Positions 17,301 to 60,417 of a DNA stretch of 64,000 nt are shown piece by piece; positions within the stretch are counted from its first letter, which is position 1, and every line of letters begins with the position of its first letter. A model generated the notes under the pieces. That model was not told the DNA's origin. It saw only the letters and a list, made by a program, of their open reading frames with translations, and did not search any database. The stretch is from positions 31,466 to 95,465 of IMG/VR virus record IMGVR_UViG_3300032291_001492, one strand, 5' to 3'. The position numbers and the translations under genes were made by a program. The stretch is from a virus.

Positions 17301-20300
17301 CTACTGATTTGTATTCATGGGTTGAACGTTATGCATTCACAAGCACTACATTATCAAATGTATTAAACGATGTTGCTTATGTTAGCACTCCTGGATATAC
17401 TGGATTTGTCGCAGTTGGATTAGGACAACGTTTAATTAGTGGAACAGCAGTAAATGTTGCATTAATATTCACTAGTACGGACGGTTATAACTGGAATCAA
17501 GTATCGTTTACTGACACTGTATTCTCATTAAATGCGATTGCATCAAACAGCGGTAGCATTGTTGCAGTTGGTAATAATGGTATTATCTATGTTAGTTTCA
17601 ATACTGTTAACTGGTTTGCACAAACATCACCGGTATCAGAAAACTTAAACAATATTATTTGGGATAGTTATAATAATCAATTTGTTGCAGTAGGTGATAA
17701 CGGAACTATATTGACCGGTGATGCTAATGGCAACGCATGGACAGCACGAACATCTGGCACAACAGAAGATATACAAAGTGTTGTTTGGAATAATGATGAT
17801 GGCATTTATATTGCTGTTGGATTGAACAATACAATTTTACAAAGTGCTGATGCTATAACATGGATCTCAATTGCTACATTTGAAGTATTACCGTCAGTCT
17901 ATGATATTCAAGGTGATGCGTTTACTGCAGGTTATGGTCCGGAAGAAATGGTTCCTGGGGTAGTATCTGATACTATTACTATGACTGTTGCGACCCGTCC
18001 AGGAACTAACTGGGATGAAACTGTTTATCAACATGTTGGATATAATGTAGTATCTATTGAATTATCACCAATTAATGCATTACAAACAGAGTACAGTTTT
18101 GTAAATATAACCTCTACTCCTGCACAATTAAGTGTGTTTATCATTGACTATACAACAGAATTAAGCACAACAATTTATCAAGGTATTGATTATACAATAG
18201 ATTGGATCAACAAAGTTGTGACTTTGACAAATCCATTAAGTTTTGTTACAGAAGGTACATCAGATAGATTACGTATTGATGTATATGAAGTTGGTAATGG
18301 TGATCAGTTAGTAAAAGCAAATACAGAAACTGATCCTATTAGATTAAACACCACTACTGGATTTCAAGAAATATATGTAAATGCTAATTATAGTGCAGAC
18401 ATTTATCAAGGTTCAGGTATTATTAGACCTAATACTAATCCACTAGAAGCAATTGCGATTGCAACGGATGAAACAACAGATGCAATTACTTGTGAAAGTG
18501 TTGAGAATTTTGTATTGAACGGCACAATTACTTTTAGCGGAGCAGTGTTTGGTGGAATAGTAGAAGACCAAGTTTATTATGTAAAATCTATTAGTTATAT
18601 ATCAAACAGAATTACTATTTCTGAAATATTTAATACAGGTTCAGGCACTGCAGGAGCAACGTTCCCGTTGACTACTGCAACCGGGTTAATGACTGCAATT
18701 ATTCAAGTTGGTACCGGTACAGTATGGACACCTCCTAGCGTGTTCCACAATGGTACTAAACTAGTATTGGGTCATACTGCAAATATAACTAGAACTAAAT
18801 CAGGAACCAATACTATAACTACGAATACTACCGGTGACTTAGTTCCTAATCTATCTATTAAGTTTAGTTCAACTATGTTTGGTGGAGTAATCGTACCGTT
18901 ACAAACATATTACATTAAAACAATTTATGATGGAAATGAATTTACAATTTCAGAAACACCAGGTGGCGCAGAATTAGAATTGACCAACGCTACGGGTGGT
19001 GCAATTTTCATATCAGGTGATTATGCGATTGGTATTGCAGATAATGGCATTTCTGCTGCGGTGTTGTTGGCAAATGAATATGATGCATTAACAGACTATA
19101 TCACTTATACTTTCTTTGGACAAACATTACCTGTACAATATGGTTACACACTTCCGGAAGTGCAACTATTTGAAGGTGATGGATCAACTGCATCATTTAC
19201 ATTAACTAATTATGTGGGTGATAGTAATGTTACAAGTGCAATTGTCGAAATTGATGGTATAAGACAAACTATTTCTGCCTATAATATAAGTGCAATCTCT
19301 AACACTATATTGTTCAACACACCTCCGGCAAACGGATCAACTATAGCGGTTACTTCATATAATTTGACAGACCGTCAATATTTTAATACACAATACGGCA
19401 TTACAGGTTCTTCTGGTGCAACTACAACTACTATTGTAGTTAGTGACACAACCCATAGCGTGGGCACGTTTGACCAAGATACTCCAACTATTGAAACATT
19501 TGACCAAGATACTCCTAGTGTAGTTTTATATGACCAAGAATTAGATTGGCTAACACTGGGTTCAGGCTCAACAAGCAGTTTATCAATTAATTTCCCAATT
19601 GTATTCCAAGCACCAACTCTAGGTGGGTTAATTGCTGGACAAATCTATTATGTAGTAGAAATATTAAATTCAACTGATTTTGTTGTATCTACTCAAGTAG
19701 ACGGAACACCCACAACAGTTACTACTGATAGTGGTTCAATGAATGGTGTGGTTAATGGATTAACAGTTGCTAATATAATTAATATTAATAATGCTATTTC
19801 TAGTCCTTTGACAACTGTATTAGTTACTGGAACTACAGGTGGTGCATCAGATTATGTAGTGTGTGGTTCTACAACTGGACTAATCGTAGATCAACCAATT
19901 ATATTTAAAGCCGCAATAACTACTGCTGGCTCATTTGTTGTAGGTAAAACTTATAAAATTACTACACTAACAGGTACTTCACAAGTGCAGTGGAATACTA
20001 CTGCTGGAACTTCAGGAGTAACATATGTAGTGGGTGATATATTCACAGCCGCAACAGTTGGTGCTGGTACTGGTCAGGCGTTATTAACTGATTTGGGTGG
20101 AATTAATACATTGGGTGAAGTATATTTTGTTCGTTCTGTTGCAAGTGGAACTGAATTTACAATTAAAGATCAGTATGGAACATTAGTTAATCTAACTACT
20201 GCTAGCGGTAGTTTAGTAGGATTTATGGGTGGTCTATCTGCAATTAGTGTAACAACTGGCATAGATCATAATCTATCGGAAAATGAAATAGTTCGTATTG

Positions 20301-27027: not shown

Positions 27028-27970
27028 TGATATTATTGATGTTGCGGATTTAGATTGTGTATATCTAAGCTATGATGAACCACAAAAAGAAGAATTTTGG
27101 ATTAAGATAAAAAATATGGTGCCTTGGGCAAAACGTGTTGATGGTGTAAAAGGAAGTGATGCCGCACACAAAGCCGCAGGTGAAGCAAGCGACACGGAAC
27201 GTTTCATTCTAATTGATGGCGACAATATGCCAAACGAAGATTTCTTCAATATTCAATTAGATTTTACAAACAAAGATCCTTCATTTAAGAAAGCACAGTT
27301 TCGTTGGAAAGCAGTAAACAGTATTAATGGTTTGCGTTATGGTAATGGTGGCATGAGTAGTTGGACAAAAGAATATGTTGCTAATATGAAAACGCATGAA
27401 CATCAAACAGAAGGTGATGTATCTCGCATTGCTGATTTCTGTATGGGAGGTAATGATAATTTATATTGGGCTATGTACAATTGCTACAGCACAACATACC
27501 CTAACTACACACCCTTTCAAGCATGGCGTGCAGGATTCCGTGAAGGTGTTAAAATGAGTTTAGACAGAGGTGCAAGACCTTCTGTTGAAGCGTTTAAAGA
27601 AACAGTAGCAAGTAGAAATTTAAATAATCTAACTATCTGGCACAACGTAGGTATGGATGTAGAAAACGGTGAGTGGGCGATAATGGGAGCCCGTATGGGT
27701 ACACATATGACTATGCTCACTGATTGGGACCATGCTAATGTTCAATGGTTTGATAATTACATTGAGATGTGGAATAAGATCAAAGACGAAGATCCATTAG
27801 AACTATCAGAAATATATGGCATCGAACTAAAAACTAAATTGGATTTGCCAATGTGTGCATTAGATAGTGACCAAAGTAAATTTTTTAAGCGTCACTATAA
27901 AGCAGATTTTCATAACTTAGATCCATTAGTAACTGAGATGGATGTAATTCGTAGAATTGAAGGATGGTAA
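27017..27970 (+). CDS. GT-A-like protein with DGD motif, 317 aa
   Basis: The N-terminus (DLDCVYLSYDEPQKEEFW) and the stretch RVDGVKGSDAAHKAAGEAS, followed by FILIDGDNMP, look like a GT-A fold, with D67-G68-D69 as the DxD motif. The same 'RVDGVKGxxxAxHAAAEAS' signature occurs near the C-terminus of the 1510-aa repeat protein at 49707-54239, so the two share a domain. A later conserved stretch, AWRAGFREGVKMSLDRGA, is matched there by TWRTSFREALKLR. The likely role is sugar transfer in the cytoplasm, with unknown acceptor. It ends in a TAATG overlap with the first radical SAM gene. Confidence 0.6.
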   Translation: MNSDDIIDVADLDCVYLSYDEPQKEEFWIKIKNMVPWAKRVDGVKGSDAAHKAAGEASDTERFILIDGDNMPNEDFFNIQLDFTNKDPSFKKAQFRWKAVNSINGLRYGNGGMSSWTKEYVANMKTHEHQTEGDVSRIADFCMGGNDNLYWAMYNCYSTTYPNYTPFQAWRAGFREGVKMSLDRGARPSVEAFKETVASRNLNNLTIWHNVGMDVENGEWAIMGARMGTHMTMLTDWDHANVQWFDNYIEMWNKIKDEDPLELSEIYGIELKTKLDLPMCALDSDQSKFFKRHYKADFHNLDPLVTEMDVIRRIEGW

Positions 27971-29364
27971 TGAGTAGCGAACAGCAACGTATAAAAGACA
28001 TTAAGATTAAAATTGAGAATGAAGTAGGTCCAACCTTCTGTCTTGCTAAATGGCACCATGTTACTATGTACCTACAGTCAGGAGAAACACATAGTTGTTA
28101 TCATCCACAACCTCATAAAATTCCAATTAGCGAGTTAATAGACAATCCTTCAGCGTTACATAATACACAACAAAAAAAAGAAGAACGTAAACTTATGTTA
28201 GATGGTGGTAAACCATCCGGTTGCCAGTATTGCTGGAACATTGAGAGTATGGGTCCTGACTATATTAGTGATAGACATATACGCAACGCTAGCATATTCA
28301 CAGAAGAACGATATGAACAGACTGTCAAAGGTCCTTGGAATCAAAATATAAATCCAGAATACTTAGAAATTAACTTTGGTAACGAATGTAATTTCAAGTG
28401 CGGCTATTGTCATCCTAAGTATTCTACTAGTTTCTATAATGAAATTAAAAAGAATGGCCCTGTCACTACAGTAAAAAATCATAGATGTGACATTGACTGG
28501 ATGACACTTTATCAACGTGAAGAAGAAAATCCATACGTTGATGCATTTTGGAAATGGTGGCCCGAATTACGTAAAACATTAAACATTATGCGAGTAACCG
28601 GCGGCGAACCTACGATGCATACTAGCACATGGAAATTGTTGAAAGAGATTGAGCAAGATCCTATGCCTTGGTTAGAACTAAATATCAATAGTAATTTAGG
28701 AACTAAAACTGCACTAGTAGAAAAATTAGCTGATAGTGTTAAAAAATTAGTAGACAATAAAAAAATACGTGCATTCAAATTGTTTACTAGTCTGGATACA
28801 TGGGGTGAACGTGCAGAGTACATTAGAACCGGATTAGATTTAGAATTGTGGGAAAAGAATTTTCACACATATTTGACCCGTACAGATAGTCCAATCACAT
28901 TTATGATAACCTTTAATATATTTTCAGTCACTACATTTAAGTCATTACTTGAAAAAATGTTAGAATGGCGTGAACAATATGGTTGGTATGAAGATATAAA
29001 AAGCCATCGTGTTAGATTTGACACCCCGTATTTGCGAGACCCAATTCAATACGATATGAATATATTGCCTAAAGAAGAATTCATGCCTTATATGAATGAT
29101 ACACTGGCATTTATGAAAGCTAATGTAGATGATGAAGCCAGTAATAAATTTACAACAGTTGAATATGAAAAATTTAAACGTGTTGTTGATTATATGGCTG
29201 AGACAGTATATCCAGAAAGTAAATTGATTGAAGGTCGAAGAGATTTTTATAATTGGTTTAATGAACTAGATGAACGCCGCGAAAATGATATGTTATCTGT
29301 GTTTCCTGAAATGTTAGGATTTTATAGATTATGTCAAGAGGTTAACCAAACACATCCAAAATGA
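27970..29364 (+). CDS. Radical SAM protein with N-terminal twitch-like cysteine region, about 464 aa
   Basis: C140-x3-C144-x2-C147 (ECNFKCGYC) is the 4Fe-4S/SAM-binding motif, followed by a 'VTGGEPTMH' strand-2 motif typical of SAM binding. Before the core, residues 18-90 carry FCLAKWHHVTMYLQSG and a SGCQYCW cluster, an N-terminal auxiliary-cluster-like (twitch) region. Such enzymes usually modify peptides or proteins. I chose the ATG at 27970 (TAATG overlap) over an in-frame ATG at 27964. It is coupled to the next radical SAM gene by ATGA. It is the most divergent of four tandem twitch-type genes. Confidence 0.8.
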   Translation: MSSEQQRIKDIKIKIENEVGPTFCLAKWHHVTMYLQSGETHSCYHPQPHKIPISELIDNPSALHNTQQKKEERKLMLDGGKPSGCQYCWNIESMGPDYISDRHIRNASIFTEERYEQTVKGPWNQNINPEYLEINFGNECNFKCGYCHPKYSTSFYNEIKKNGPVTTVKNHRCDIDWMTLYQREEENPYVDAFWKWWPELRKTLNIMRVTGGEPTMHTSTWKLLKEIEQDPMPWLELNINSNLGTKTALVEKLADSVKKLVDNKKIRAFKLFTSLDTWGERAEYIRTGLDLELWEKNFHTYLTRTDSPITFMITFNIFSVTTFKSLLEKMLEWREQYGWYEDIKSHRVRFDTPYLRDPIQYDMNILPKEEFMPYMNDTLAFMKANVDDEASNKFTTVEYEKFKRVVDYMAETVYPESKLIEGRRDFYNWFNELDERRENDMLSVFPEMLGFYRLCQEVNQTHPK

Positions 29365-30638
29365 CAGAAAAAATATCAAACAATAAAGAATTCGATCTTA
29401 CGCAAAGTAAAACTTTTTGCATGTCTCCTTGGATACACTTGTACTCAAGTCCTAGTGGTGAGGCAGCACCGTGTTGTATTGCTGAATCATGTGCCCAGGG
29501 CGGAGTGGGTAACACTAGAACACAATCATTAATGGAAGTAGTTAATTCACCTAAAATGAATCAACTACGAAATGATATGCTATCTGGGGTAAAGAATAAA
29601 GAATGCGATAAATGTTACATGCATGAAGATCAAAACTTATTAAGTTCACGTAATATGCTTAATACTAGATTTGGTCCTAATTTCTACGATGAAGTTATTG
29701 AAAATACAAACATTGACGGATCATTGGCTAAATTTAAAATGAGATATTTTGATATTCGTTTTAGTAATATATGTAATTTTAAATGTAGAACATGCGGTTC
29801 CGGCTTTAGTACACAATGGGAACAAGAAGATTTAAAAAATAATGTTTACCATGCAAAAATAATTCCAAAAAATGATAATCCAGATTTTTTAAAAGAAATA
29901 TTTGATCAAATAGATTTTATGGAAACCGCTTATTTTGCGGGCGGTGAACCCTTAATCACAGAAGAACATTATATTTTGTTAGAAGAAATGATACGAAGAG
30001 GTCGTACTGATATCCAACTAAGGTATAATACAAACTTAAGCAATTTTAAATTTAAAAACAAAGATTTATTATCTTTATGGAAGCATTTTAGTAAAGGGGT
30101 CGATATATATGCAAGCATTGACCATTACGGAGAACGTGCAGAGTATATAAGACACGGAACAGATTGGGGAGTAGTAGAAAGTAATTTTTTACAAGCTAAA
30201 AAAACTCCCTATTTAAGAGTGAATATGAACACTGTATTAAGTGTTTTTAATTTTTTAACAATACATGAATTTTATCAATATCTAATAGATAAAAAATTAT
30301 ATACTCCTAATAGTAGTGTTTATACACTATATAACATGTCAACTCCTGATTATTTGGCTTGTCATATTTTGCCCTTAGATTATAAAGATGTTGGAAAAAA
30401 TAGTATTGAAAAAACTATGCGATTATTAAAAGATAAGAGATTTAAAAAACACCATATAACGCAACTATCAGATACTATTCCTTGGATTTATTCAAAAGAT
30501 TCATGGGATGAAAACAAATATCAATTTAGAAAAGAAGTAAAAAGATTAGACTCAATTAGAGGGGAAGATTTTTCAAAAACTTTTCCTGAATTAGCTCCGT
30601 TGTTACTTCCAGATCGTAATAAATTTTTCCCTATATGA
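29361..30638 (+). CDS. Twitch-type radical SAM protein, 425 aa (second of four)
   Basis: The core motif is C138-x3-C142-x2-C145 (ICNFKCRTC), followed by 'YFAGGEPLITEEHY'. The N-terminus carries TFCMSPWIHLYSS, a PCC pair and a CDKC pair, which resemble the auxiliary cluster ligands of SPASM/twitch domains but placed before rather than after the core. The next gene is a close paralogue, sharing 'FDIRFSNICNFKCRTCGS', 'EEMIRRGRTDI' and 'DHYGERAEYIRHGTDWG'. This implies tandem duplication. Coupled at both ends by ATGA overlaps. A peptide- or protein-modifying role is inferred; the substrate is unknown. Confidence 0.8.
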   Translation: MTEKISNNKEFDLTQSKTFCMSPWIHLYSSPSGEAAPCCIAESCAQGGVGNTRTQSLMEVVNSPKMNQLRNDMLSGVKNKECDKCYMHEDQNLLSSRNMLNTRFGPNFYDEVIENTNIDGSLAKFKMRYFDIRFSNICNFKCRTCGSGFSTQWEQEDLKNNVYHAKIIPKNDNPDFLKEIFDQIDFMETAYFAGGEPLITEEHYILLEEMIRRGRTDIQLRYNTNLSNFKFKNKDLLSLWKHFSKGVDIYASIDHYGERAEYIRHGTDWGVVESNFLQAKKTPYLRVNMNTVLSVFNFLTIHEFYQYLIDKKLYTPNSSVYTLYNMSTPDYLACHILPLDYKDVGKNSIEKTMRLLKDKRFKKHHITQLSDTIPWIYSKDSWDENKYQFRKEVKRLDSIRGEDFSKTFPELAPLLLPDRNKFFPI

Positions 30639-31861
30639 ACAAAAATTATCTATTAAATGATAGCAAAACGTTTTGTATGTTTCCGTGGGTACATCTAAAT
30701 GTAACTCCCAAAGGTGATATATATCCTTGCTGTAGTAATGACTATACGCAACCCTTCGGAAACACAAAAGAAATAACATTAAAACAGGCATTTAACAGTG
30801 AACCAATGAAGCAATTGCGATTGGACATGTTAAATGACAAACCTAATAAAATATGCAATTTCTGTTACAAGCACGAAGAAGCAGGTCCGCATAGTTTTAG
30901 AAATTACAGTAAAGAACATTTTGGAAAACACTTTGATGAAGTTGTGCCCACTACGTTAGAAGATGGAACTGTTCCTGAATTTAAGATGCATTACTTTGAC
31001 ATTCGTTTTAGTAACATATGTAATTTCAAATGTAGAACATGCGGTAGTGAGTTTAGCAGTCAGTGGGGAGCAGAGATGCGAGCTAATCATGATCCTAAGC
31101 ATCCCATTATTATTCATGCTGATGAAAAAGGTAATTTATTGCGTGAAGTACTAGAACAAGTAGAACACATTGATTTGGCATATTTTGCAGGTGGAGAGCC
31201 CACACTTACCGAAGAGCATTATATAATGCTTGAAGAAATGATACGTAAAGGCCGCACTGACATTACATTACGCTATAACACAAACGCTAGTAATATCAAG
31301 TTTAAAGATTATGATTTACTAGACATGTGGAAGCACTTTAAGAAAATTGAATTGAGTTGCAGTGTTGACCATTATGGTGAACGTGCAGAATGGCTACGTC
31401 ATGGTACTGATTGGGGATTAGTTGAAAGTAATCTGTTAAAGTTCCGTGAATTAGATTATGTTAGTTTTCAAATGAACACTGTATTCAGTATCTTTAACTA
31501 TAGTACAATTGGTGAATTTTATCAGTACTTAAAAGACAAGAATATTATTAGAGCAGAAGATTGGTATCATAGTTTGTACTTGGCAGTACATCCTAGTTAT
31601 TATAGTGCTAAGAGTCTACCCAAAGAATTAAAAATTGAAGCCGCAAAGAAAGCACTTGATTGGGCAGATAAGAATACAGGTGATCATACCTCATTATCAC
31701 GCTTAGTTACTGATGCAGTAAACTTTGCTACAGACGATGACATATGGACTGAAAATAAAGAAACTTTCATGTTGCATACAGGTTCAGGAGATAGAATTCG
31801 TAATGAAAGTTTCTGGAAAACATTCCCTGAATTAAATAAATTGATGGATTTAACGGAGTAA
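30635..31861 (+). CDS. Twitch-type radical SAM protein, 408 aa (third of four)
   Basis: The core motif is C129-x3-C133-x2-C136, with AYFAGGEPTLTEEHYIMLEE downstream. The N-terminal TFCMFPWVHLNVTPKGDIYP is followed by a Cys pair and CNFCYKHE, giving extra cluster ligands. It is clearly homologous along its full length to the preceding gene and more distantly to the next. Adjacent paralogues with intact motifs suggest different substrates or a heteromeric complex rather than decay. It is followed by a 2-nt gap and an ATG with acggag just upstream. Confidence 0.8.
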   Translation: MNKNYLLNDSKTFCMFPWVHLNVTPKGDIYPCCSNDYTQPFGNTKEITLKQAFNSEPMKQLRLDMLNDKPNKICNFCYKHEEAGPHSFRNYSKEHFGKHFDEVVPTTLEDGTVPEFKMHYFDIRFSNICNFKCRTCGSEFSSQWGAEMRANHDPKHPIIIHADEKGNLLREVLEQVEHIDLAYFAGGEPTLTEEHYIMLEEMIRKGRTDITLRYNTNASNIKFKDYDLLDMWKHFKKIELSCSVDHYGERAEWLRHGTDWGLVESNLLKFRELDYVSFQMNTVFSIFNYSTIGEFYQYLKDKNIIRAEDWYHSLYLAVHPSYYSAKSLPKELKIEAAKKALDWADKNTGDHTSLSRLVTDAVNFATDDDIWTENKETFMLHTGSGDRIRNESFWKTFPELNKLMDLTE

Positions 31862-31863
31862 AA

Positions 31864-33135
31864 ATGCAAGACCCAATAGTTGTAGAGAATTTAGTAAAAC
31901 ATGGTAAACACTTTTGTGTATTACCCTGGGTCCACTTTCATTCATGGCCTGATGGCAGAGTTATGCCTTGCTGTGTTGCTGATAGTAATATGCCAGTGGC
32001 TGAGATTAAAAAAGATGAATCTATCATACAAATGGTTAATAGTGAAGATTTCAAAAAAATGCGTACTGCTATGTTAGCTGATGAACCAGTTGAAGCATGT
32101 AAGCGTTGCTATGACCTAGAGTTAATGGGTACTTGGACAATGCGTTTAAGTCATAATAAACGCCGAGGATTAGAGTATGTTAATCATATAAGTGAAATTA
32201 CAGAAGATGATGGTAGTTTGACGGAATTCAAAATGAAATACATGGATTTACGTTTTAGTAATATGTGTAACATGAAGTGCCGTAGTTGTGGTCCTGGCTG
32301 TAGTAGTTTATGGGCACAAGAGTTTATTGATGAACGTGGCGTGGATGTATACGAAGAATATTTTCACACAAAAAAAATTGTAATTAACAAAGCAGAAGAA
32401 ATGGGCTTTATGAATAAATTAAAGCCATATCTAAAAGATGTTACTGAGGTTTATTTTGCTGGTGGTGAAATTATTATCACCCCGGAACATTATGAATGTT
32501 TAGATTATTGGATTGAGAATGGCTTAAACGAACAAGTCGAACTAACATACACAACTAACTTTAGTTCGTTGAAATACAAAGACAAAGATTTAATTGGTTA
32601 TTGGAAGAAATTCCCCCAACTTAAAATATGGGCTAGTTTAGATGCAGAAGGCGCGGTCGCAGAAACTATTCGTAAAGGAACAGATTGGGACAGAATTGTT
32701 AAAAACATCAAAACATTAAAAGAGCAAGTACCACACGCACAGTTTCAAATCACTCCTACTATTAGTATTTGGAATGTGTTTCATTTCCCTGATTTCTTTG
32801 ACTATATGATTGAACAAGGATTTATTGATACAACATCAAGTCCTAGATTTAATCTAGCAACTAATCCATGGTATGCAAATATTATGATATTACCTGTTCA
32901 CGTTAAACGTAGATTAGCAGAGTTATATCGGGTGTATCAAAACAAATATAAAGACAACGTTGATATCTACAATGGTTTTAAGATGATTATATACAACTTA
33001 ACTGTAGGTGAAGAAAACAAAGGTGGAATCTTAGAATTCAAACAGTTTAATGATGAGTTAGATGAATTCAGAGATGAAAAATTAATAGACATTATTCCAG
33101 AATTAAAAGAGGTATATGAATGGGCAAAAAGCTAA
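31864..33135 (+). CDS. Twitch-type radical SAM protein, 423 aa (fourth of four)
   Basis: Core motif C135-x3-C139-x2-C142 (MCNMKCRSC), then an extra cysteine in CGPGC, and 'VYFAGGEIIITPEHY', where the usual GGEP is GGEI. N-terminal FCVLPWVHFHSWPDG, a CC pair and CKRCYDLE supply auxiliary ligands. It overlaps the next radical SAM gene by 16 nt. The GGEP to GGEI change lies in the SAM amino-group binding strand and sets it apart from its paralogues. The function is inferred as peptide or sugar modification by family only. Confidence 0.8.
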   Translation: MQDPIVVENLVKHGKHFCVLPWVHFHSWPDGRVMPCCVADSNMPVAEIKKDESIIQMVNSEDFKKMRTAMLADEPVEACKRCYDLELMGTWTMRLSHNKRRGLEYVNHISEITEDDGSLTEFKMKYMDLRFSNMCNMKCRSCGPGCSSLWAQEFIDERGVDVYEEYFHTKKIVINKAEEMGFMNKLKPYLKDVTEVYFAGGEIIITPEHYECLDYWIENGLNEQVELTYTTNFSSLKYKDKDLIGYWKKFPQLKIWASLDAEGAVAETIRKGTDWDRIVKNIKTLKEQVPHAQFQITPTISIWNVFHFPDFFDYMIEQGFIDTTSSPRFNLATNPWYANIMILPVHVKRRLAELYRVYQNKYKDNVDIYNGFKMIIYNLTVGEENKGGILEFKQFNDELDEFRDEKLIDIIPELKEVYEWAKS

Positions 33136-34094
33136 TCGCAATTGAGGCGCCACAGCCCTATCTTGCAATCACATGGCAAGTTAACAACTATTGCAACTTT
33201 AAATGTAGCTACTGCAATCCTGGTAACTGGGGAGGCACAGATATTAATGACGGTAATTTAGATTTGTATATCAGCAATTTAGCTACCATGATTAATAAGT
33301 ATAAAGCTGCCGGATATAAGAATTTTAAGTTCTTTTTTAGTGGTGGTGAACCTACAGCATGGAAAAACTTTATTCCAATATGTGAATGGATTTACAAAGA
33401 ACTACCACGTGCTACACTAGCAGTTAATACTAATTTAAGTCGCCCATTAGCCTGGTGGGAAAAGCATTATCATTTGTTTGATGATGTTGTTGCCAGTTAT
33501 CATGTTGAATTTAGTGATAAAAGAAGATATGAAGAAAACAGTATTTTCTTGTGTGATAAAGTTAATTATCTTAGCACTAAGATGCTAATGCACGAAGAAA
33601 GATTCTGGGAAGTAGTTGAGTATGGTAATTACTTAAAAACAGTAATGCCAAATTATTTCTTAGAATGGACTCCGTTATTTGATGAGATGAGTGTTAATGC
33701 AGGACCTTGGCAGTACAAAGATCCAACAAAAGAACAATGGTTACGTGAACACACTACTGAAATTCAACAAACTAAACGTAAACCTATGAAGCGAACAACA
33801 CTTACTGTTAGTTATAATAAATACGATGACGGAAGTAATGAAGTTTGTAATAGTAATGAAGTGATTGTAGCAGGTAATAATTTCTTTAGTGGTTGGAATT
33901 GTAATGTAGGTGATGCTATCTTTATTAATCCAGTAGGTGAAATGAGTTTAGCAAGTTGCGGCATGGGCGGTTATGTTGGACATATATTAACTGACATTAA
34001 TCGTGTAGGGCCAAAACAAATTGTATGTGAAAAAGAACATTGTCATTGCGGTACTGATATTATTATTCCTAAATTTATAGGAGAAACAACATGA
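33120..34094 (+). CDS. Short radical SAM protein, 324 aa
   Basis: The motif lies very near the N-terminus, C25-x3-C29-x2-C32 (YCNFKCSYC), with 'FFFSGGEPTAWKNF' as the SAM-binding strand. There is no N-terminal twitch region. The C-terminus carries scattered cysteines (WNCNVGD, ASCGMGG, CEKEHCHCGTD) that could bind a second cluster in SPASM-like order. It belongs to a different radical SAM subfamily from the four genes before it. It overlaps the preceding gene by 16 nt and the next by ATGA. The substrate is unknown. Confidence 0.75.
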   Translation: MGKKLIAIEAPQPYLAITWQVNNYCNFKCSYCNPGNWGGTDINDGNLDLYISNLATMINKYKAAGYKNFKFFFSGGEPTAWKNFIPICEWIYKELPRATLAVNTNLSRPLAWWEKHYHLFDDVVASYHVEFSDKRRYEENSIFLCDKVNYLSTKMLMHEERFWEVVEYGNYLKTVMPNYFLEWTPLFDEMSVNAGPWQYKDPTKEQWLREHTTEIQQTKRKPMKRTTLTVSYNKYDDGSNEVCNSNEVIVAGNNFFSGWNCNVGDAIFINPVGEMSLASCGMGGYVGHILTDINRVGPKQIVCEKEHCHCGTDIIIPKFIGETT

Positions 34095-49706: not shown

Positions 49707-52700
49707 ATGCTAAGAGATGTATTTTATTACGGTAAAAAACCTAACGTTCACCCAAAAGAAAAATTTGCAACTTCATTAGAAGATGCAAGAAAACAATCTA
49801 CTACAGAACATTTTTGGATAATCAATGAATATTGTGATTATCGTGGATTTGAATGGGATTTCGATTTTGAATTTTTACCAGACGAAGATGTATGGGCAGA
49901 AGAACATATAAATGTTTGGCCTAGTCAACATCAAAAAGATAGTGGTACCTGGTTATGTAATACAGATAATATATCCTCATTAATAATTTATCGGGCTGAT
50001 GTTAATCCTGTAAAGCGTAAAAACGAACTAAACATCTATTGGGTTATCAGAGATGTTATTGATAATACTAAATTTGATTTTAGTTGGCATCCTGACCCCA
50101 CAGACCCTCCATACATTTATATTTTCCCTACTAATTGGAACCCGGTAGGCGGCCCTGAATATCACATTGAAGGTGCGACAGAAAAGAAATACATTGCTAC
50201 CCAGATTGGTGTTACTATTCCTCAAATGGATAAATGGGAAGTCCCCGATTATATTGATGTAAGTGATTTTGATTTTAGTTGGGTTCCTCATCCCGACGAT
50301 CCTCCGTTTATATATGAGTTTGGTACGCAATGGCAGAAGACTTGCGGACCTCGTTATATAGTTGATGATGCCCAAGAAGTTAAGTATGTCAGTAATATTC
50401 GTGTTAAAGCACTAGCCAACATGACTAATTGGACATTACCTACCAATGTAGCTATTGATGATTTTGATTTTAGTTGGCACCCTGATTCAACAAGTCCCCC
50501 CTACATTTATAATTTTCCAACGCAGTGGGCAATGTCAGGGGGTCCAGTTTACACAGTAGAGGGTGCAACAGAAGTTAAGTATGTTGAAGACATGGTAGCA
50601 AAAGCAATTGCTGATCCTGAACGAAAGAATTGGGAAGTACCTGCATTTATTGACGTAGATAATTTTGACTTTAGCTGGCATCCATATGCCGAAGATGAAC
50701 CGTATATCTATCAATTTGGAACTCAATGGCAGAAGACAGGTGGACCTCGATTCTTAACTCCCGGAGTTCATAAGAATAGCCCAATAAAATATGTTGATAC
50801 AAGAATTATCAAATCAACTCGTTTGGCCTCACGTAAAAATTTTGCTATATTAAACAATCTCAGAATTGCTGAGTTTGACTATTCTTGGCACCCTGATACA
50901 ACAGAAGAACCATTCATCTATGTTTTTGGTAATCAACATTATCCAGGTGAAATCATGCCGACGATTGAATATGTTGTTCCTGGTGCAACTCAAATAAAAT
51001 ATGTCAATGACATTATTGCAACATTAGGACCTGACAGAACTAACTGGGTGATTATTCAACCTATCAATGAAGATAAGTTTGACTTCAGTTGGAAACCTAA
51101 CCCTAAAGACCCTCCGTATATCTATATATGGGGTAACTCTTATATAGATGGTAAGATTAAATCTACTATTGAATATCATGTTGACGGTGCGACAGAAAAG
51201 AAATACATGGACGAACTTGTTGAAGTGATTCCTGAATGGGATCGTTGGGACATTCCTAAAAACATTGACACAAGTAAATTTGATTTCACTTGGAGACCGG
51301 ATCCACTTGATGCTGATTTCATTTGGCAGTTTGGCACACAACATCAGAAGACAGGTGGTCCTCGTTATATAGTAGATGATGCTACTGAAATAAAATACGT
51401 AGAAGAAAACAGAGCAACCGCTATATTTACATCAATGAAACATTGGGAAATTCCAGAAGGGTTAGACATATCTGAGTTTGATTTTAGCTGGCATCCGGAT
51501 GCAACAGAAAAACCATACATATATGTTTTTGGAACTCAATGGGCTTTGACCGGTGGCCCTAAATATATTTCGCCTGGTGCAACAGAAGTGAAATATATTG
51601 ATGCACCTATTGCAAAGGCTGCACCTAATAGACAACACTGGATTATACCTGACAACATAGCAGTTGAAGAATTTGATTTTAGTTGGCATCCATATGCTGA
51701 AGATAAGCCATATATCTATCAATTTGGTACTCAATGGCAAAAGACGGGCGGCCCTCAATACATTACGCCTGGATCAGATGAAATGTCTCCGATCAAATAT
51801 GTTGATACTCGTATTTTAAAGGCAAGACAGTTAAAGTCTAAGGGAAGTTTTTCTGTAGTAGGTGATATCAAAATTAAAGATTTTGATTACTCATGGCATC
51901 CTGATAGTACTGAACAGCCATACATATATGTATTTGGTAACCAATGGCATCCTGCTGAACTAGAACCTACTATTGAATATCACGTGCCCGGAGCAACAAC
52001 TAAAAAATATATTCACGATATTGTTGCAACAACGGGTCCTGATATGAATCTATGGGATGTTCCTGAAGGTTTTAACAAAAATACGTTTGATTTTACTTGG
52101 AGACCTGATCCAACAAGTCCTCCCTACATTTATCAATTTGGTTCATTGATTGATAGAAATGATGGCCCTAGATATAATGTGCCCAATAATGACGGTGAAG
52201 TTGTATTCTTAGAAAGAAAAGAAATAGCATTACCCACTTCAGTTAAGGTTCCGCAATATTATATTGAAACCACACTAGAGGATCTTGTTAATAAACATCC
52301 AAACGAAATCTTTTGGGCGTTAAACAATGACATTGATTATGAGAAATTTGATTTTGATTGGAGACCTCAGATAGTTAATATTCAATGGGAAAACGAATAC
52401 GTATATGTGTTTGGTTCTCCTGAGAGTATACTTACTCAAACATATTTTGTTAATGCCGCTATGTATTTACAAGGCAATAAAGATTTTAAATTTGTTGAAA
52501 ATGAAACAATTAGTGAAAAATATCTAGCAACTTTATTCAAAAAATCTGATATGTTTTTTGTTGATAGAGGCAACAAAGAAGCACAAGAACGTTTTGACAA
52601 ATTAAAACAACGTTTCCCTACTATACAAAAGACAAGATATTTGAACACTTGGGTAGACACAATCAATCGTTGTATTAATCGTGCAACAACTAATTTATGT

Positions 52701-54239
52701 TGGATACTAAACAGTGAATTAGTATACGATAATTTTGATTTTGATTATTACCCTAACCCTTGGCAGATGAAAATGATTCAAGTGTTTGGAACTCAATGGA
52801 GTCATTGGGGTACTACCTTTATGGTTAATCGTGACACATTTGCTAAAGATACCAAATATGTTAAAGTCATTGAACACTTAAACAATCTTAACTTTGTAAA
52901 AGACCGTAGAGCAATTTCAACAAATGTATTGTACGATAAAATATATATTGACCATGGAAACAAACCTGTTCCTACTGATACTACAGTGATTCAATATGAA
53001 GAAAGTTATTTAAATACATTCAAAAAATTGTTAGACAAATTACCTGAAAAGAAAGAACATTTTGTTTGGATCACTAGTTCAATATGCGACTACACTGGAT
53101 TTGATTTTACTTATATTTGTGATCCATTTGCACGTGAACAGCTTCATGTATTTCCTAGCGACAAGCAGAAATTTGGAGATACATTTTTAATAAATGTTAA
53201 CAAATTACGTGAGTTGATTTCTGAAATGAATGTATTAGAAGATTACAACAAAGTAAATTATAATCAACACCAACGTGCAAAACGTTTACCCAGTCCAATT
53301 ATTATTACAGAAGGTGATACACATGTCTCTAGTATTGACACTAATTTTGATTTCCCTTATGCTACGTTTGTCACGATTGACAACAAAGACATACAAGTAA
53401 TTGATTCTGAACCCATGAGTTTATGGGATATAGAGAGTAAAACTATTCAGGTTACTAGTGTAGGTGGAACACGTATTGTTGTGCCTAAAGAAATTAAACA
53501 ACACTTCAAACGTGAATTATACGACTATCCATACATTAGCACAAATAGTAAACTTGCAAAATCTACCCCAATGGATATTGTGTTCTTAAGTAACGGTGAA
53601 ACAGGTGCAGATGAAAACTATGATCATTTAATAAAAACTACACAAGGTTTGCCTAATCGTGTAGTAAGAGTAGATGGTGTAAAGGGTCGTGTGCAAGCAT
53701 ATCATGCGGCAGCAGAAGCAAGCAATACTCCCTGGATGTTCACAGTTTTTGCTAAATTAAAAGTTAGTAACAAGTTTGATTGGAACTGGCAACCAGACAG
53801 ATTACAGATACCTAAACATTATGTATTTCACGCTAAGAATCCTGTCAATGGTTTAGTATACGGTCATATGGCTATGATTGCTTATAATAAAAAATTAACA
53901 CTTGCTAATAAAGGTAAAGGGCTTGACTTTACTATGGACGATGAGCATGAGGTTTTAGAAATCAATTCAGGAACTGCAAATTTTAATACGGATGAATGGT
54001 CAACTTGGCGTACTAGTTTCCGTGAAGCATTAAAGTTACGTGCTAATGAGGATCAGGTCAGTAAAGATAGACTTGATATTTGGTTAACTGTTGGTATGAG
54101 TAAATTCAACGAATATAGCATGGAAGGTGCTCAACATGCAGTTGAATACTATGAAGAAGTAAATGGTGACTTTGATAAGTTAAAACTGTCTTATGACTGG
54201 CCTTGGTTACGTGCTTACTTTGATAAGAAATACAAGTAA
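49707..54239 (+). CDS. Repeat protein with C-terminal GT-A-like domain, 1510 aa
   Basis: About 14 imperfect repeats of 65-70 residues run from residue about 40 to 1140. Each has the form 'W.IP..ID...FDFSWHPDPxxPPYIYxFGTQWQKTGGPxYxxxGATExKYV'. The last 220 residues contain IVFLSNGETGADENYDHL, RVVRVDGVKGRVQAYHAAAEAS and WRTSFREALKLRAN, shared with the GT-A-like protein at 27017. Inside this domain KFDWNWQPDRLQIPKHYVF resembles the repeat, so the array may derive from it. No signal peptide or membrane segment. It starts 8 nt after the carbamoyltransferase. The repeats could be a binding scaffold for the modification enzymes or a virion part. Confidence 0.65.
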   Translation: MLRDVFYYGKKPNVHPKEKFATSLEDARKQSTTEHFWIINEYCDYRGFEWDFDFEFLPDEDVWAEEHINVWPSQHQKDSGTWLCNTDNISSLIIYRADVNPVKRKNELNIYWVIRDVIDNTKFDFSWHPDPTDPPYIYIFPTNWNPVGGPEYHIEGATEKKYIATQIGVTIPQMDKWEVPDYIDVSDFDFSWVPHPDDPPFIYEFGTQWQKTCGPRYIVDDAQEVKYVSNIRVKALANMTNWTLPTNVAIDDFDFSWHPDSTSPPYIYNFPTQWAMSGGPVYTVEGATEVKYVEDMVAKAIADPERKNWEVPAFIDVDNFDFSWHPYAEDEPYIYQFGTQWQKTGGPRFLTPGVHKNSPIKYVDTRIIKSTRLASRKNFAILNNLRIAEFDYSWHPDTTEEPFIYVFGNQHYPGEIMPTIEYVVPGATQIKYVNDIIATLGPDRTNWVIIQPINEDKFDFSWKPNPKDPPYIYIWGNSYIDGKIKSTIEYHVDGATEKKYMDELVEVIPEWDRWDIPKNIDTSKFDFTWRPDPLDADFIWQFGTQHQKTGGPRYIVDDATEIKYVEENRATAIFTSMKHWEIPEGLDISEFDFSWHPDATEKPYIYVFGTQWALTGGPKYISPGATEVKYIDAPIAKAAPNRQHWIIPDNIAVEEFDFSWHPYAEDKPYIYQFGTQWQKTGGPQYITPGSDEMSPIKYVDTRILKARQLKSKGSFSVVGDIKIKDFDYSWHPDSTEQPYIYVFGNQWHPAELEPTIEYHVPGATTKKYIHDIVATTGPDMNLWDVPEGFNKNTFDFTWRPDPTSPPYIYQFGSLIDRNDGPRYNVPNNDGEVVFLERKEIALPTSVKVPQYYIETTLEDLVNKHPNEIFWALNNDIDYEKFDFDWRPQIVNIQWENEYVYVFGSPESILTQTYFVNAAMYLQGNKDFKFVENETISEKYLATLFKKSDMFFVDRGNKEAQERFDKLKQRFPTIQKTRYLNTWVDTINRCINRATTNLCWILNSELVYDNFDFDYYPNPWQMKMIQVFGTQWSHWGTTFMVNRDTFAKDTKYVKVIEHLNNLNFVKDRRAISTNVLYDKIYIDHGNKPVPTDTTVIQYEESYLNTFKKLLDKLPEKKEHFVWITSSICDYTGFDFTYICDPFAREQLHVFPSDKQKFGDTFLINVNKLRELISEMNVLEDYNKVNYNQHQRAKRLPSPIIITEGDTHVSSIDTNFDFPYATFVTIDNKDIQVIDSEPMSLWDIESKTIQVTSVGGTRIVVPKEIKQHFKRELYDYPYISTNSKLAKSTPMDIVFLSNGETGADENYDHLIKTTQGLPNRVVRVDGVKGRVQAYHAAAEASNTPWMFTVFAKLKVSNKFDWNWQPDRLQIPKHYVFHAKNPVNGLVYGHMAMIAYNKKLTLANKGKGLDFTMDDEHEVLEINSGTANFNTDEWSTWRTSFREALKLRANEDQVSKDRLDIWLTVGMSKFNEYSMEGAQHAVEYYEEVNGDFDKLKLSYDWPWLRAYFDKKYK
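50056..53130 (+). repeat. Tandem protein-coding repeats (FDFSWHPD type), period about 200 bp
   Basis: The core codons for FDFSW-like text fall near 50073, 50269, 50461, 50664, 50875, 51079, 51279, 51477, 51671, 51883, 52085, 52349, 52737 and 53102. Spacing is 190-212 bp for the first eleven, and longer and more degenerate for the last three. Nucleotide identity between copies is moderate, so the copies are not recent. Confidence 0.8.
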
Positions 54240-54440: not shown

Positions 54441-54447
54441 ATTCATA

Positions 54448-54482
54448 TTGTAACATTATTGTAACACACTATGAAATAAATA
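54448..54482 (+). promoter_or_regulatory. Pho box and PhoB-type promoter upstream of plcP
   Basis: TTGTAAC (54448-54454), ATTA, TTGTAAC (54459-54465) are two perfect 7-bp direct repeats with a 4-bp spacer, the geometry of a PhoB operator (consensus CTGTCAT-N4-CTGTCAT). Eleven nt further, TAAATA (54477-54482) can serve as the -10. There is no -35, as in PhoB-activated promoters. The upstream site at 59351 before pstS has the same 7-4-7-11-TAAATA layout. The last octamer AATAAATA (54475-54482) may also be a late promoter. Confidence 0.75.
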
Positions 54483-54489
54483 AGTCTAT

Positions 54490-55371
54490 ATGAAGACTTA
54501 CCGCTCTATCTTTATTAGTGATGTGCATCTCGGAACTAAAGACAGCCAAGCAGGAAAACTAAACAACTTTCTCAAACACAACACCTGCGATACACTTTAT
54601 CTTGTGGGTGACATTATAGATGCATGGCGAATACAACAAAACAAATGGCGTTGGAAACAAAGTCATACTAATGTAGTCCGACGTATACTAGGTCATGCCA
54701 AGCGAGGTACTAGAGTGATTTATGTTGCAGGCAATCACGATGAATTCTTAAGACCTATGATACCTTATGGATTTAGTTTTGGACTAATAGAGATACACAA
54801 TCAAATAGAACACATAGGTGCTGATGGCAAACACTATCTAGTAACGCACGGCGATTTGTTTGACGGCATTACCCGTTTAGCACCTTGGTTAGGTTTCTTG
54901 GGTGACAAAGCCTATGACTTTATATTATATCTTAATAGCAAGTTTAATTGGGTTCGTCATAAAATGGGATTTGGCTATTGGTCATTAAGCAAATATCTTA
55001 AATACAAAGTAAAAAAAGCAGTGGACTTTATATTTCAGTTTGAACGTAATTTAGCAGACTATTGTAAGAAGCGTGGGTTTGATGGTGTTATATGTGGACA
55101 TATACATCATGCTGAGATAAAAGAAATCAACGGCGTCATGTATATGAATGATGGTGATTGGGTTGAATCATGTACGGCATTAATAGAACATCATTCAGGT
55201 ACATGGGAAATTGTAACTTGGACTAAGGAGAAGGATGATGTGGGTATTGATACTAATAGCGGTACACATGAACGATCCAACAGACCAGCCCGGGAGAGTG
55301 GAGCTACAGTTCGCGGATCAAACAACTTGTCTGCAAGTACTAAGCACCCTCAAGTGGCAACTGAAATTTAA
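54490..55371 (+). CDS. plcP: PlcP-type phospholipase C (calcineurin-like metallophosphoesterase), 293 aa
   Basis: All metallophosphoesterase motifs are present: D11-x-H13 (SDVHLG), GD with D41, GNHDE with N82-H83-D84, THGD near residue 122 and GHIHH near 200. The stretches 'FNWVRHKMGFGYWSLSKYLK' and 'MNDGDWVESCTALIEHH' match what I recall of PlcP of Sinorhizobium and marine bacteria, more than LpxH. PlcP cleaves phosphatidylglycerol or phosphatidylethanolamine under phosphate starvation, releasing phosphate and leaving diacylglycerol. The glycosyltransferase that follows can use that diacylglycerol. The last 45 residues (after KEKD) are low in structure and overlap another frame (55235-55411). 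Confidence 0.85.
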   Translation: MKTYRSIFISDVHLGTKDSQAGKLNNFLKHNTCDTLYLVGDIIDAWRIQQNKWRWKQSHTNVVRRILGHAKRGTRVIYVAGNHDEFLRPMIPYGFSFGLIEIHNQIEHIGADGKHYLVTHGDLFDGITRLAPWLGFLGDKAYDFILYLNSKFNWVRHKMGFGYWSLSKYLKYKVKKAVDFIFQFERNLADYCKKRGFDGVICGHIHHAEIKEINGVMYMNDGDWVESCTALIEHHSGTWEIVTWTKEKDDVGIDTNSGTHERSNRPARESGATVRGSNNLSASTKHPQVATEI

Positions 55372-55411
55372 AAGTTTTAAGGTGGTAGGAGAATGCAAAA
55401 AACAATTCTGA
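55235..55411 (+). CDS. Small membrane-anchored two-cysteine protein nested across plcP/agt, 58 aa
   Basis: In the +1-shifted frame, a double ATG follows a strong aaggagaagg ribosome site (55225-55234). The product starts with a hydrophobic anchor (MMWVLILIAV) and has a C-terminal part with two cysteines 22 positions apart (TTCLQVL...VVGEC). It overlaps the plcP 3' end for 137 nt and the agt start for 19 nt. The plcP extension beyond the family's usual end begins where this frame begins, as expected for overprinting. The 57267-57446 protein has the same anchor and the same C-x3-L-...-G-x-C spacing. Confidence 0.55.
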   Translation: MMWVLILIAVHMNDPTDQPGRVELQFADQTTCLQVLSTLKWQLKFKSFKVVGECKKQF

Positions 55412-56403
55412 TAGTTACAGACAATTTACCGGATCAAATAAATGGTGTCGTTACAACATACAAAAATATTGAGGCTTGTGCGCTTTTGGATGGTTATAAT
55501 GTTGTTTACATTACTCCCGGGGACTTCCGCCACTTTGATTGTCCTGGCTACAACGAAGTCAAGATTGCCTATCCAAGGCAGATGGGCAAGAAGATTGAGG
55601 AGATCGGTCCGGATTATATCCATATCGCCACAGAGGGTCCTATTGGTTTGTCTGCTAGAAAATATCTTTCAAAACATAATCTTCGGTACAATACTGCTTA
55701 TCATACTAAGTTCCCTGAAGGACTTAGAGCCTTATTTGGTATCCCTGAGGCTCTTACTTGGCCTTTAGTCAGATGGTTTCATAAACACAGTGGCAAAGTA
55801 TTGACCACTACAGATACAATGGTAAAGGAGTTAAAAAATCATGGCTTTGATGGAGATATTATTCCTTGGACTCGTGGGGTTGATCGTACTATATTTTCTC
55901 CTGCCTTAAGAGATGAATGGCATGGTCAAGAAATTATTTTACTATGTGTTAGTCGTGTATCTAAAGAAAAAAACTTAGAAGATTTTTTTGAACTAGACTA
56001 TCCCAATAGTCGCAAGATAATGGTGGGCGATGGCCCTATGTTAGAAACTTACAAAAAGCAGTATCCTGACATAGATTTTGTGGGATTCAAAACAGGTGTA
56101 GAACTTGCTACCTATTATGCCAATGCTGATGTTTTTGTGTTTCCTAGCAAATGGGAAACGTTTGGTATTGTTATGATTGAAGCAATGGCTTGTGGTACCC
56201 CTGTTGCGGCTTATCCTGTGCAAGGCCCGTTAGATGTTATAGATGAGGGTGTGACTGGTTGTATGAATGATGAGTTAAAACAAGCAGTTAAGGATGCTCT
56301 AATGCTATCTAGAGGATTAGTATATCATGGCAGTCAGCGTTGGACTTGGGAACGTGCTTGGGAAATATTCCGTGACAATCTAGTTGACAAACATCATGAA
56401 TAA
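55393..56403 (+). CDS. agt: Family GT4 glycosyltransferase, Agt-like (glycolipid synthesis), 336 aa
   Basis: A full-length GT-B enzyme. The N-terminal domain starts LIVTDNLPDQINGVVTTYKNI, and the C-terminal domain has LLCVSRVSKEKNLEDFF, a VGDGPM loop and the E-x7-E motif in WETFGIVMIEAMACGTP. These fit the GT4 family that includes MgdA/Agt and SqdX. In bacteria with PlcP, the neighbouring Agt adds glucose or glucuronate to diacylglycerol, making phosphorus-free glycolipids. The sugar donor cannot be told from sequence. It has a taggag ribosome site and lies 21 nt after plcP, so they form one Pho-controlled transcript. Confidence 0.8.
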   Translation: MQKTILIVTDNLPDQINGVVTTYKNIEACALLDGYNVVYITPGDFRHFDCPGYNEVKIAYPRQMGKKIEEIGPDYIHIATEGPIGLSARKYLSKHNLRYNTAYHTKFPEGLRALFGIPEALTWPLVRWFHKHSGKVLTTTDTMVKELKNHGFDGDIIPWTRGVDRTIFSPALRDEWHGQEIILLCVSRVSKEKNLEDFFELDYPNSRKIMVGDGPMLETYKKQYPDIDFVGFKTGVELATYYANADVFVFPSKWETFGIVMIEAMACGTPVAAYPVQGPLDVIDEGVTGCMNDELKQAVKDALMLSRGLVYHGSQRWTWERAWEIFRDNLVDKHHE

Positions 56404-59350: not shown

Positions 59351-59385
59351 TTGTCACATTACTGTCACATAATTCTAAGTAAATA
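59351..59385 (+). promoter_or_regulatory. Pho box and PhoB-type promoter upstream of pstS
   Basis: TTGTCAC (59351-59357), ATTA, CTGTCAC (59362-59368) closely match the CTGTCAT PhoB operator repeat with a 4-bp spacer. The -10 TAAATA (59380-59385) begins 12 nt after the box, as in the plcP site. It is followed by an aaggag ribosome site at 59400-59405 and the ATG at 59413. Confidence 0.85.
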
Positions 59386-59412: not shown

Positions 59413-60417
59413 ATGAAAAAGTTACTTGGTATGTTGATAGCAACAGTTGCATTAACTGTTCAAGCCACAGATATAACAGGGGCAGGTGCAACTTTCCCCT
59501 ATCCCATTTATGCTAAATGGGCAGAAGCATATAAAAAAGAAACAGGTGTTGGTCTTAACTATCAATCAATTGGTAGTTCAGGTGGCATTCGTCAAATTAA
59601 CGCAAAAACAGTAGCGTTTGGCGCTACAGATGCACCAGTATCAGGCGAGAATTTAGACAAGAATAACCAAGTTCAATTTCCAGCAATCATTGGTGGAACA
59701 GTTCCTGTTATTAACTTAGATGGCTTTAAGCCAGGTGAATTACGAATCACTGGTCTTGTATTAGCAGAAGTTTACATGGGTAACATTGTGAAATGGAATG
59801 ATCCTAAACTGGTAGCATTGAACCCAGGCAAGCGTCTTCCTGATGAAGCTATCACTGTGGTGCATCGTGCAGATGGTTCAGGTACGACATTCAACTGGAC
59901 AGACTACTTGAGTGCAGTCAGTAAAGAGTTCAACGACCGAGTAGGTAAAGGTGCCGCAGTCAAATGGCCTGCTGCCAGTTCAGTAGGTGGCAAAGGTAAC
60001 GAAGGCGTTGCTGCCAACGTGAACCGTATCAAAGGCTCAATTGGTTATGTTGAGTATGCCTATGTTAAAAAGAATAACATGAACTTTATGCAATTGCAAA
60101 ATAAAAGCGGCAAGTATGTTAGTCCGGATGATTTAACATTTGCAGCCGCGGCATCAGGAGCAGATTGGTTCAGTGTTCCGGGTATGGGTGTTAGTATTGT
60201 AGATCAAAGGGGTGATAATGTATGGCCAGTTTCTACTGCAAGTTTCATTATCATGTATAAGAATCCTGATGACAAAAAAGCGTCAACAGAAGTTTTGAAA
60301 TTTTTTGATTGGGCATTCAAGAATGGTAAAAAAATGAGTGAAGAATTAGATTATGTACATTTACCTGACAGTCTAACAAAACAAATTCGTGAAAGAGTTT
60401 GGACTCAAATTAAATAA
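59413..60417 (+). CDS. pstS: Phosphate ABC transporter periplasmic binding protein PstS, 334 aa
   Basis: MKKLLGMLIATVALTVQA is a signal peptide. The mature protein starts TDITGAGATFPYPIYAKWAEAY, the hallmark of PstS. Phosphate-binding loops follow: GSSGGIRQI, AFGATDAPVS and HRADGSGTTFNWTDYLS. The C-terminus carries the family's FFDWAFKNGKKMSEELDYVHLPDSL. It binds phosphate in the periplasm for the host PstCAB importer; no pstC, A or B is present here, so it must serve the host system. Pho box upstream and terminator downstream make it a single-gene unit. Cyanophages carry the same gene as an auxiliary metabolic gene. Confidence 0.95.
   Translation: MKKLLGMLIATVALTVQATDITGAGATFPYPIYAKWAEAYKKETGVGLNYQSIGSSGGIRQINAKTVAFGATDAPVSGENLDKNNQVQFPAIIGGTVPVINLDGFKPGELRITGLVLAEVYMGNIVKWNDPKLVALNPGKRLPDEAITVVHRADGSGTTFNWTDYLSAVSKEFNDRVGKGAAVKWPAASSVGGKGNEGVAANVNRIKGSIGYVEYAYVKKNNMNFMQLQNKSGKYVSPDDLTFAAAASGADWFSVPGMGVSIVDQRGDNVWPVSTASFIIMYKNPDDKKASTEVLKFFDWAFKNGKKMSEELDYVHLPDSLTKQIRERVWTQIK

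Follow-up and report, generated by a model that had tools for sequence, protein, structure and literature searches.

Bacteria carry plcP-agt genes under Pho regulation (PMC4796936), and cyanophages carry genes under the control of the host PhoBR system (PMC10976474). The phosphorus genes known from phages so far serve uptake, alkaline phosphatase activity and nucleotide recycling. We describe here a phage operon that would combine bacterial PlcP-Agt remodelling with cyanophage-style Pho control, and in which a plcP gene is followed by a gene for a family 4 glycosyltransferase (GT4). The operon lies in viral record IMGVR_UViG_3300032291_001492 (95,465 bases), within its 64,000-nucleotide end part (record positions 31466-95465), which we call the window and whose numbering is used below. 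Its elements are the following:

54448..54465, plus strand: predicted Pho box, TTGTAAC ATTA TTGTAAC, with an 11-bp period (repeats at 54448-54454 and 54459-54465)
54477..54482, plus strand: TAAATA, a -10-like element, 11 nt past the Pho box and 7 nt ahead of the plcP ATG
54490..55371, plus strand: plcP, PlcP-type metallophosphoesterase (phospholipase C), 293 amino acids; ATG at 54490, stop codon ending at 55371
55393..56403, plus strand: agt-like GT4 glycosyltransferase with GT-B fold, 336 amino acids; ATG at 55393, stop codon ending at 56403

The bacterial PlcP-Agt pairs of Pseudomonas aeruginosa (PA3219-PA3218), Phaeobacter MED193, SAR11 HTCC7211 and Methylosinus OB3b share with this locus the enzyme families, gene order, operon organization and Pho-box control. 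Compared with the P. aeruginosa-type pair, the phage PlcP is 56% and the phage GT4 40% identical. Unlike the bacterial pairs, the operon is carried by a phage, its PlcP belongs to a clade of phage proteins, a family 2 glycosyltransferase (GT2) occurs as an alternative partner, the plcP mRNA is predicted to be nearly leaderless, and the system is known here from sequence. Like cyanophage pstS and the S-PM2d genes (PMC10976474), the locus places metabolic genes behind a Pho box for the host regulator, and a pstS gene is present in the same genome. However, the cyanophage genes serve uptake and nucleotide recycling, whereas the present operon would target membrane lipid, and its repeat is of the TGTNAY type rather than the cyanobacterial PyTTAAPyPyT/A type.

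Several comparisons support the view, already proposed in a preliminary description of this DNA, that the first gene encodes a PlcP-type phospholipase C, which would cleave phosphatidylethanolamine and phosphatidylglycerol, and not LpxH (UDP-2,3-diacylglucosamine diphosphatase). The two enzymes have the calcineurin-like fold (PF00149, 40 bits in the window protein) and metal motifs in common, and LpxH provides the nearest solved structures. All of the metal motifs (DxH, GD, GNHD, HGD and GHIH) are intact in the window protein. In a tree of 63 proteins, LpxH formed one clade (support 100/99) with the window protein outside it, in a phage clade nested within a group that holds PlcP-like proteins of P. 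aeruginosa and S. meliloti. Identity was 46% to the S. meliloti protein and 25% over 120 residues to LpxH, compared with the 56% to the P. aeruginosa protein. Because both reference loci come from plasmid-collection records, they were named through their gene neighbourhood and their mutual identity of 46.6%, which matches the 46% published for PA3219 and S. meliloti PlcP (PMC8528852). GNHD occurs in all window-like proteins, with GNHE in one distant phage homologue (S-SRM01), whereas nine of nine LpxH controls carry GNRD. The window protein also fell far below two LpxH family cut-offs (45.1 bits against 134 and 32.9 bits against 190), and several genomes with a PlcP-like protein hold a separate LpxH above the cut-off. 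The predicted structure is of moderate quality (predicted local distance difference test score, pLDDT, 73, with a disordered tail past about residue 247) and was therefore used for the fold alone.

The second gene begins 21 nt behind plcP, with a purine-rich ribosome site in the gap. Its coordinates, Pfam matches (PF00534, 86 bits; PF13439, 50 bits) and predicted structure (pLDDT 93, with the GT-B fold of GT4 enzymes) agree with the GT4 that had been proposed at this position, and the E-x7-E (E255/E263) and EKN donor motifs are intact. The protein is most similar to glycosyltransferases encoded beside plcP, sharing 40% identity (240 bits) with the Agt1-type GT4 encoded immediately after plcP in P. 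aeruginosa and up to 47% with other bacterial plcP neighbours, compared with 30%–32% for GT4s encoded away from plcP. Escherichia coli WaaB and WaaG, transferases of the lipopolysaccharide (LPS) core, matched with only 31-35 bits. In a GT4 tree that included WaaG and WaaB, the outgroup branches were extremely long, so the outgroup placement was not used beside these identities. When placed in E. coli, Agt1 (PA3218) makes monoglucosyldiacylglycerol (PMC8528852), and the phage GT4 may share this Agt1-like glycosylation of diacylglycerol.

The paired TTGTAAC repeats with their ATTA spacer, previously read as a Pho box, recur in relatives of the operon. Among 120 distinct, deduplicated viral plcP loci, 54 had TGTNAY-N5-TGTNAY in the 150 bp ahead of plcP, where shuffled sequences would give 0.14, and other half-site spacings from 7 to 30 were found in 0-3 loci each. 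Many of the remaining loci retain one intact half-site and a degenerate second half. Of the 54 loci with the pair, 39 have precisely 11 nt between box and TAAATA, and 14 have 21-22 nt, which corresponds to one extra repeat unit. A chance repeat is ruled out by the spacing and shuffle tests. Single copies of TTGTAAC are frequent in the window (14 on both strands), and the stricter pattern TGT[AC]A[CT]-N5-TGT[AC]A[CT] has only three matches in the whole 95-kb record: upstream of plcP, upstream of pstS, and within a giant gene, on the minus strand, where no gene follows the match. The arrangement of two direct repeats with an 11-bp period, about 10-11 bp ahead of a -10 element, is that of the Pho regulon, for which the consensus CTGTCATNNNNCTGTCAT has been published (PMC8528852). 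Together, these features make a convincing case for a Pho box in a PhoB-dependent promoter architecture, with PhoB binding predicted.

Two further observations concern these promoter elements. TAAATA also stands 10-13 nt ahead of an ATG at window positions 45103, 54490, 56798 and 58660 and in two relatives (L260:2887 and L261:14399); such elements would be T4-late-like or -10 sequences placed for nearly leaderless transcripts. A third gene family is found behind Pho boxes in relatives (L024:5708, L026:7629, L048:3315, L070:7622 and others). Its products, of about 150-315 amino acids, are rich in Ala, Val and Glu, look like coiled coils and start with MRLEDLAARLVAVEAKLATLTGTSVNTD.

The operon is conserved across related phages, although the type of glycosyltransferase is not. 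Because the viral loci compared are the best matches and belong to phages related to one another, the counts below should not be read as independent events. Retrieval with PlcP alone gave 80 loci, one of which ended at plcP itself, and a glycosyltransferase followed plcP in all 79 loci with room for one, in keeping with the operon of the preliminary description (plcP, then GT4). In 58 of these, the partner was a GT2 (PF00535) about 240 residues long, which bears no relation to GT4 and sits exactly in its place (58 of the 80 loci L002-L081, e.g. L015:6904-7626); 20 had an adjacent GT4, and one had a GT4 past an inserted gene for a RimK-like ATP-grasp protein. Retrieval with the GT4 gave 78 further loci, with plcP directly upstream in 69. 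A gap of about 0.9-1 kb separated the genes in six, filled by the ATP-grasp gene in all five that were read, and plcP was absent from three, two of which start within 30 bases of a contig end. Across these 79 loci, plcP thus stays the same, and it is the lipid-capping enzyme that changes between GT2 and GT4. Such variation around a constant PlcP would be expected if what matters in the second step is that diacylglycerol is capped, with some freedom as to which sugar is used. Both versions may even occur together: one 524-kb record (IMGVR_UViG_3300027749_002876, 524,565 bp; loci L015 and L140) holds one plcP-GT2 and one plcP-GT4 module.

These genes are under strong purifying selection, with a ratio of nonsynonymous to synonymous substitution rates (dN/dS) of about 0.1 overall (medians of 0.089 for plcP and 0.107 for GT4; about 0.06 for GT2). 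Matches on viral contigs numbered at least 598 for PlcP and at least 404 for GT4. A bacterial origin of the GT2 was considered, and no donor turned up in 300 genomes of a single order, that of Methylotenera genome G005, where a search without a positive control gave no match at 1e-15.

Some loci depart from the two-gene arrangement. The RimK-like ATP-grasp ligase between plcP and GT4 was seen in six loci (L068:6901-7788, L084:5078-6001, L112, L133, L138 and L148) and possibly adds an amino acid to the lipid or head group. Record G606 has two plcP genes, the second at the record end. A plcP-GT4 pair whose GT4 is 65% identical to that of the window is found on a contig of a metagenome-assembled genome (MAG) labelled Muricauda sp. 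TMED12 (NHBR02000105.1), which has the look of marine phage DNA binned in error.

The source of the operon is a phage of the T4-like jumbo type, consistent with the phage setting first proposed. The same record encodes a major head protein (330 bits), portal (355 bits), head maturation protease (205 bits), baseplate wedge subunit and SbcCD-type subunits. Large T4-like phages, among them Vibrio phage 2.275.O and Pseudomonas phage PA5oct, have head proteins that share 63%–66% identity with this one. Bacterial contamination is ruled out because capsid, portal and protease share the record with the operon and because viral records of up to 525 kb carry the major head protein and plcP together. The same head protein, at 76%–96% identity, was found in eight of nine plcP-bearing relatives of at least 249 kb, mostly carriers of plcP-GT2 or plcP-GT4, whereas a tenth plcP-bearing record (G615, 266 kb) lacked it. 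In the reverse retrieval, by head protein, plcP was present in one of three records longer than 200 kb. Many members of this lineage thus carry the module, though not all.

A second Pho box of the same architecture precedes a phosphate uptake gene farther along the window:

59351..59368, plus strand: second predicted Pho box, TTGTCAC ATTA CTGTCAC, 11 nt before a TAAATA (59380-59385), upstream of pstS
59413..60417, plus strand: pstS, phosphate ABC transporter substrate-binding protein, 334 amino acids (NCBIfam PRK10918, 395.7 bits against a cut-off of 339)

The same box stands ahead of pstS in 13 of 15 distinct relatives, and the phage PstS is 78%–79% identical to PstS of Burkholderiales. This promoter, the exchange between GT4 and GT2 in most relatives retrieved with PlcP, and the T4-like jumbo type were absent from the preliminary description.

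We consider it likely that the operon serves phage-borne remodelling of phospholipids to glycolipids and is switched on by the host regulator of phosphate starvation. In a phosphate-starved host, activated PhoB would bind the Pho box and recruit RNA polymerase to the TAAATA 11 nt downstream, driving transcription of plcP-GT and pstS from the phage genome. PlcP would then split phospholipids to give diacylglycerol and a phosphorylated head group, and the GT4 would add sugar to the diacylglycerol, producing a glycolipid, neutral or acidic, so that the bilayer is kept and a toxic build-up of diacylglycerol averted. Host enzymes would dephosphorylate the head group, the phosphate would go to phage DNA synthesis, and the phage pstS, behind the same type of promoter, would sustain phosphate uptake. 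The virus could thus tap membrane phosphorus and still avoid premature lysis of the cell. The opening and closing steps of this scheme and the two catalytic ones (PhoB binding, the enzymatic activities with the sugar added, and phosphorus supply as the benefit) we infer from homology and bacterial work (PMC4796936, PMC8528852, PMC9239053). With somewhat less confidence, we favour a broader picture in which widespread T4-like jumbo phages use the host membrane as a PhoB-run phosphorus store, with a fixed plcP, an exchangeable GT4 or GT2, sometimes two modules, and an envelope rebuilt in the course of infection.

Some points weigh against this proposal. PlcP alone would yield phosphorylated head groups, not inorganic phosphate, a consideration absent from the preliminary description. 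The substrate of the glycosyltransferase is suggested by relatives that are only 40%–47% identical. pstS was found in only one of 14 long plcP-bearing records, so pstS and plcP are not a fixed set. Finally, Pho-box predictions in phage genomes have been called unreliable (PMC10976474), although a box conserved as widely as this one has much more behind it than a lone prediction.

The best-surviving alternative, which we nonetheless regard as unlikely, is that the predicted activities are right and the phage gains from the altered envelope instead of from phosphorus, through changed membrane charge or proteins, a block to superinfection or antimicrobial peptides, or phage assembly; on this view, Pho control would align the process with cells that are already remodelling their lipids. 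Glycolipids do change membrane properties in P. aeruginosa (PMC8528852, PMC9804370), the exchangeable GT4 and GT2 and the two modules in the 524-kb record agree with a role of the product besides that of phosphate release, and most long plcP-bearing records have no pstS. However, phosphorus is indicated by the Pho box and by the pstS that this genome carries behind a promoter of the same kind, and the constant part of the module is PlcP, not the glycosyltransferase. It is much less probable that the two genes are mere neighbours, with PlcP alone releasing diacylglycerol and phosphate and the glycosyltransferase modifying phage DNA, protein or a capsule sugar. The GT4 and GT2 folds are generic, and the phosphoesterases of phages Mosig and S-SRM01 have no neighbouring glycosyltransferase, but adjacency in 79 of 79 loci, the replacement of one fold by another at the same position, and bacterial plcP-GT4 homologues with known diacylglycerol glycosylation count against it. 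Least probable of all, and largely refuted by tree, motif and scores, is a modification of lipid A or LPS by an LpxH-like pyrophosphatase and an LPS-core glycosyltransferase, for receptor change or superinfection exclusion, which has in its favour the database label of relatives (UDP-2,3-diacylglucosamine hydrolase) and the nearest solved fold but leaves the Pho box unexplained and conflicts with the frequent separate LpxH in PlcP genomes and a glycosyltransferase nearly unrelated to WaaG and WaaB.

Among named phage isolates, PlcP relatives were found in Pelagibacter phage Mosig EXVC030M (Mosig_00120, 48% identical) and S-SRM01 (35%), both annotated as UDP-2,3-diacylglucosamine enzymes, the former as the hydrolase. 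Unlike the window gene, Mosig_00120 has no adjacent glycosyltransferase and is divergent from a phosphate ABC transporter gene. The promoter region between the two (MT647606.1, 4851-5000) contains TTTAACAAAAACTTAAC, a TTTAAC/CTTAAC repeat with an 11-bp period of the cyanobacterial Pho-box type (9 of 2000 shuffles). Two more metagenomic records, both unannotated, match PlcP at 44% and 27%. The usual annotation of PlcP proteins is UDP-2,3-diacylglucosamine diphosphatase (plasmid records H25-H53, MT647606.1, MW015081.1), a label under which surveys of phage metabolic genes would miss them.

The preliminary description had known of no established phage plcP-agt pair, and our literature search, with preprints and most subscription journals outside its scope, found no published description of one; an earlier description elsewhere is possible. 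Within the literature searched, this would be the first case found of phage-directed remodelling of phospholipids to glycolipids. If the proposal is correct, phages also tap the lipid-bound phosphorus pool, with glycolipid as the replacement, which would change the link among phosphorus limitation, lipid composition and viral lysis in natural waters. Some environmental glycolipid and plcP signals may then be viral.

Named bacterial plcP relatives were 48%–61% identical, with a homologous GT4 as the next gene in about 47 of 80 loci. The best PlcP matches (61%) were from Alphaproteobacteria, which gives no recent donor. Two loci come from the order of the Methylotenera genomes, which we take to be Burkholderiales in GTDB: in one (L301), plcP-agt lies behind genes read as pstSCAB and dgkA, and in the other (L302), it is followed by ppk, with ppx, two phoA genes and pstS nearby. 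Genomes of this order gave the nearest matches to the phage PstS (79%), and the PstS of the L302 genome is 78%–80% identical to it, which suggests a pstS donor from this order, the host itself not being proven by it. A single-cell betaproteobacterial genome has plcP followed by genes for a DUF3419 protein and a methyltransferase, which we read as btaA-btaB of betaine lipid synthesis. On a 669-kb contig of Methylotenera MAG U-2020, plcP stands without a glycosyltransferase amid many short, phage-like, same-strand open reading frames; a search of that genome for a T4-type capsid found none.

Three other regions of the window are also of note. Directly upstream of the operon (49707-54239), a 1510-amino-acid protein contains about 12 repeats around FDFSWHPDxxxPPYIYxFGTQW; it gave no match in a Pfam search and a weak match to a PHROG tail sheath. 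An open reading frame of 6463 amino acids (2339-21730) is very long for a phage structural protein. Finally, a run of five genes with Cys motifs (27964-34094; FCxxPWxH...CC and CNFKCSYC), surrounded by glycan-like genes, is suggestive of candidate radical SAM/SPASM enzymes.
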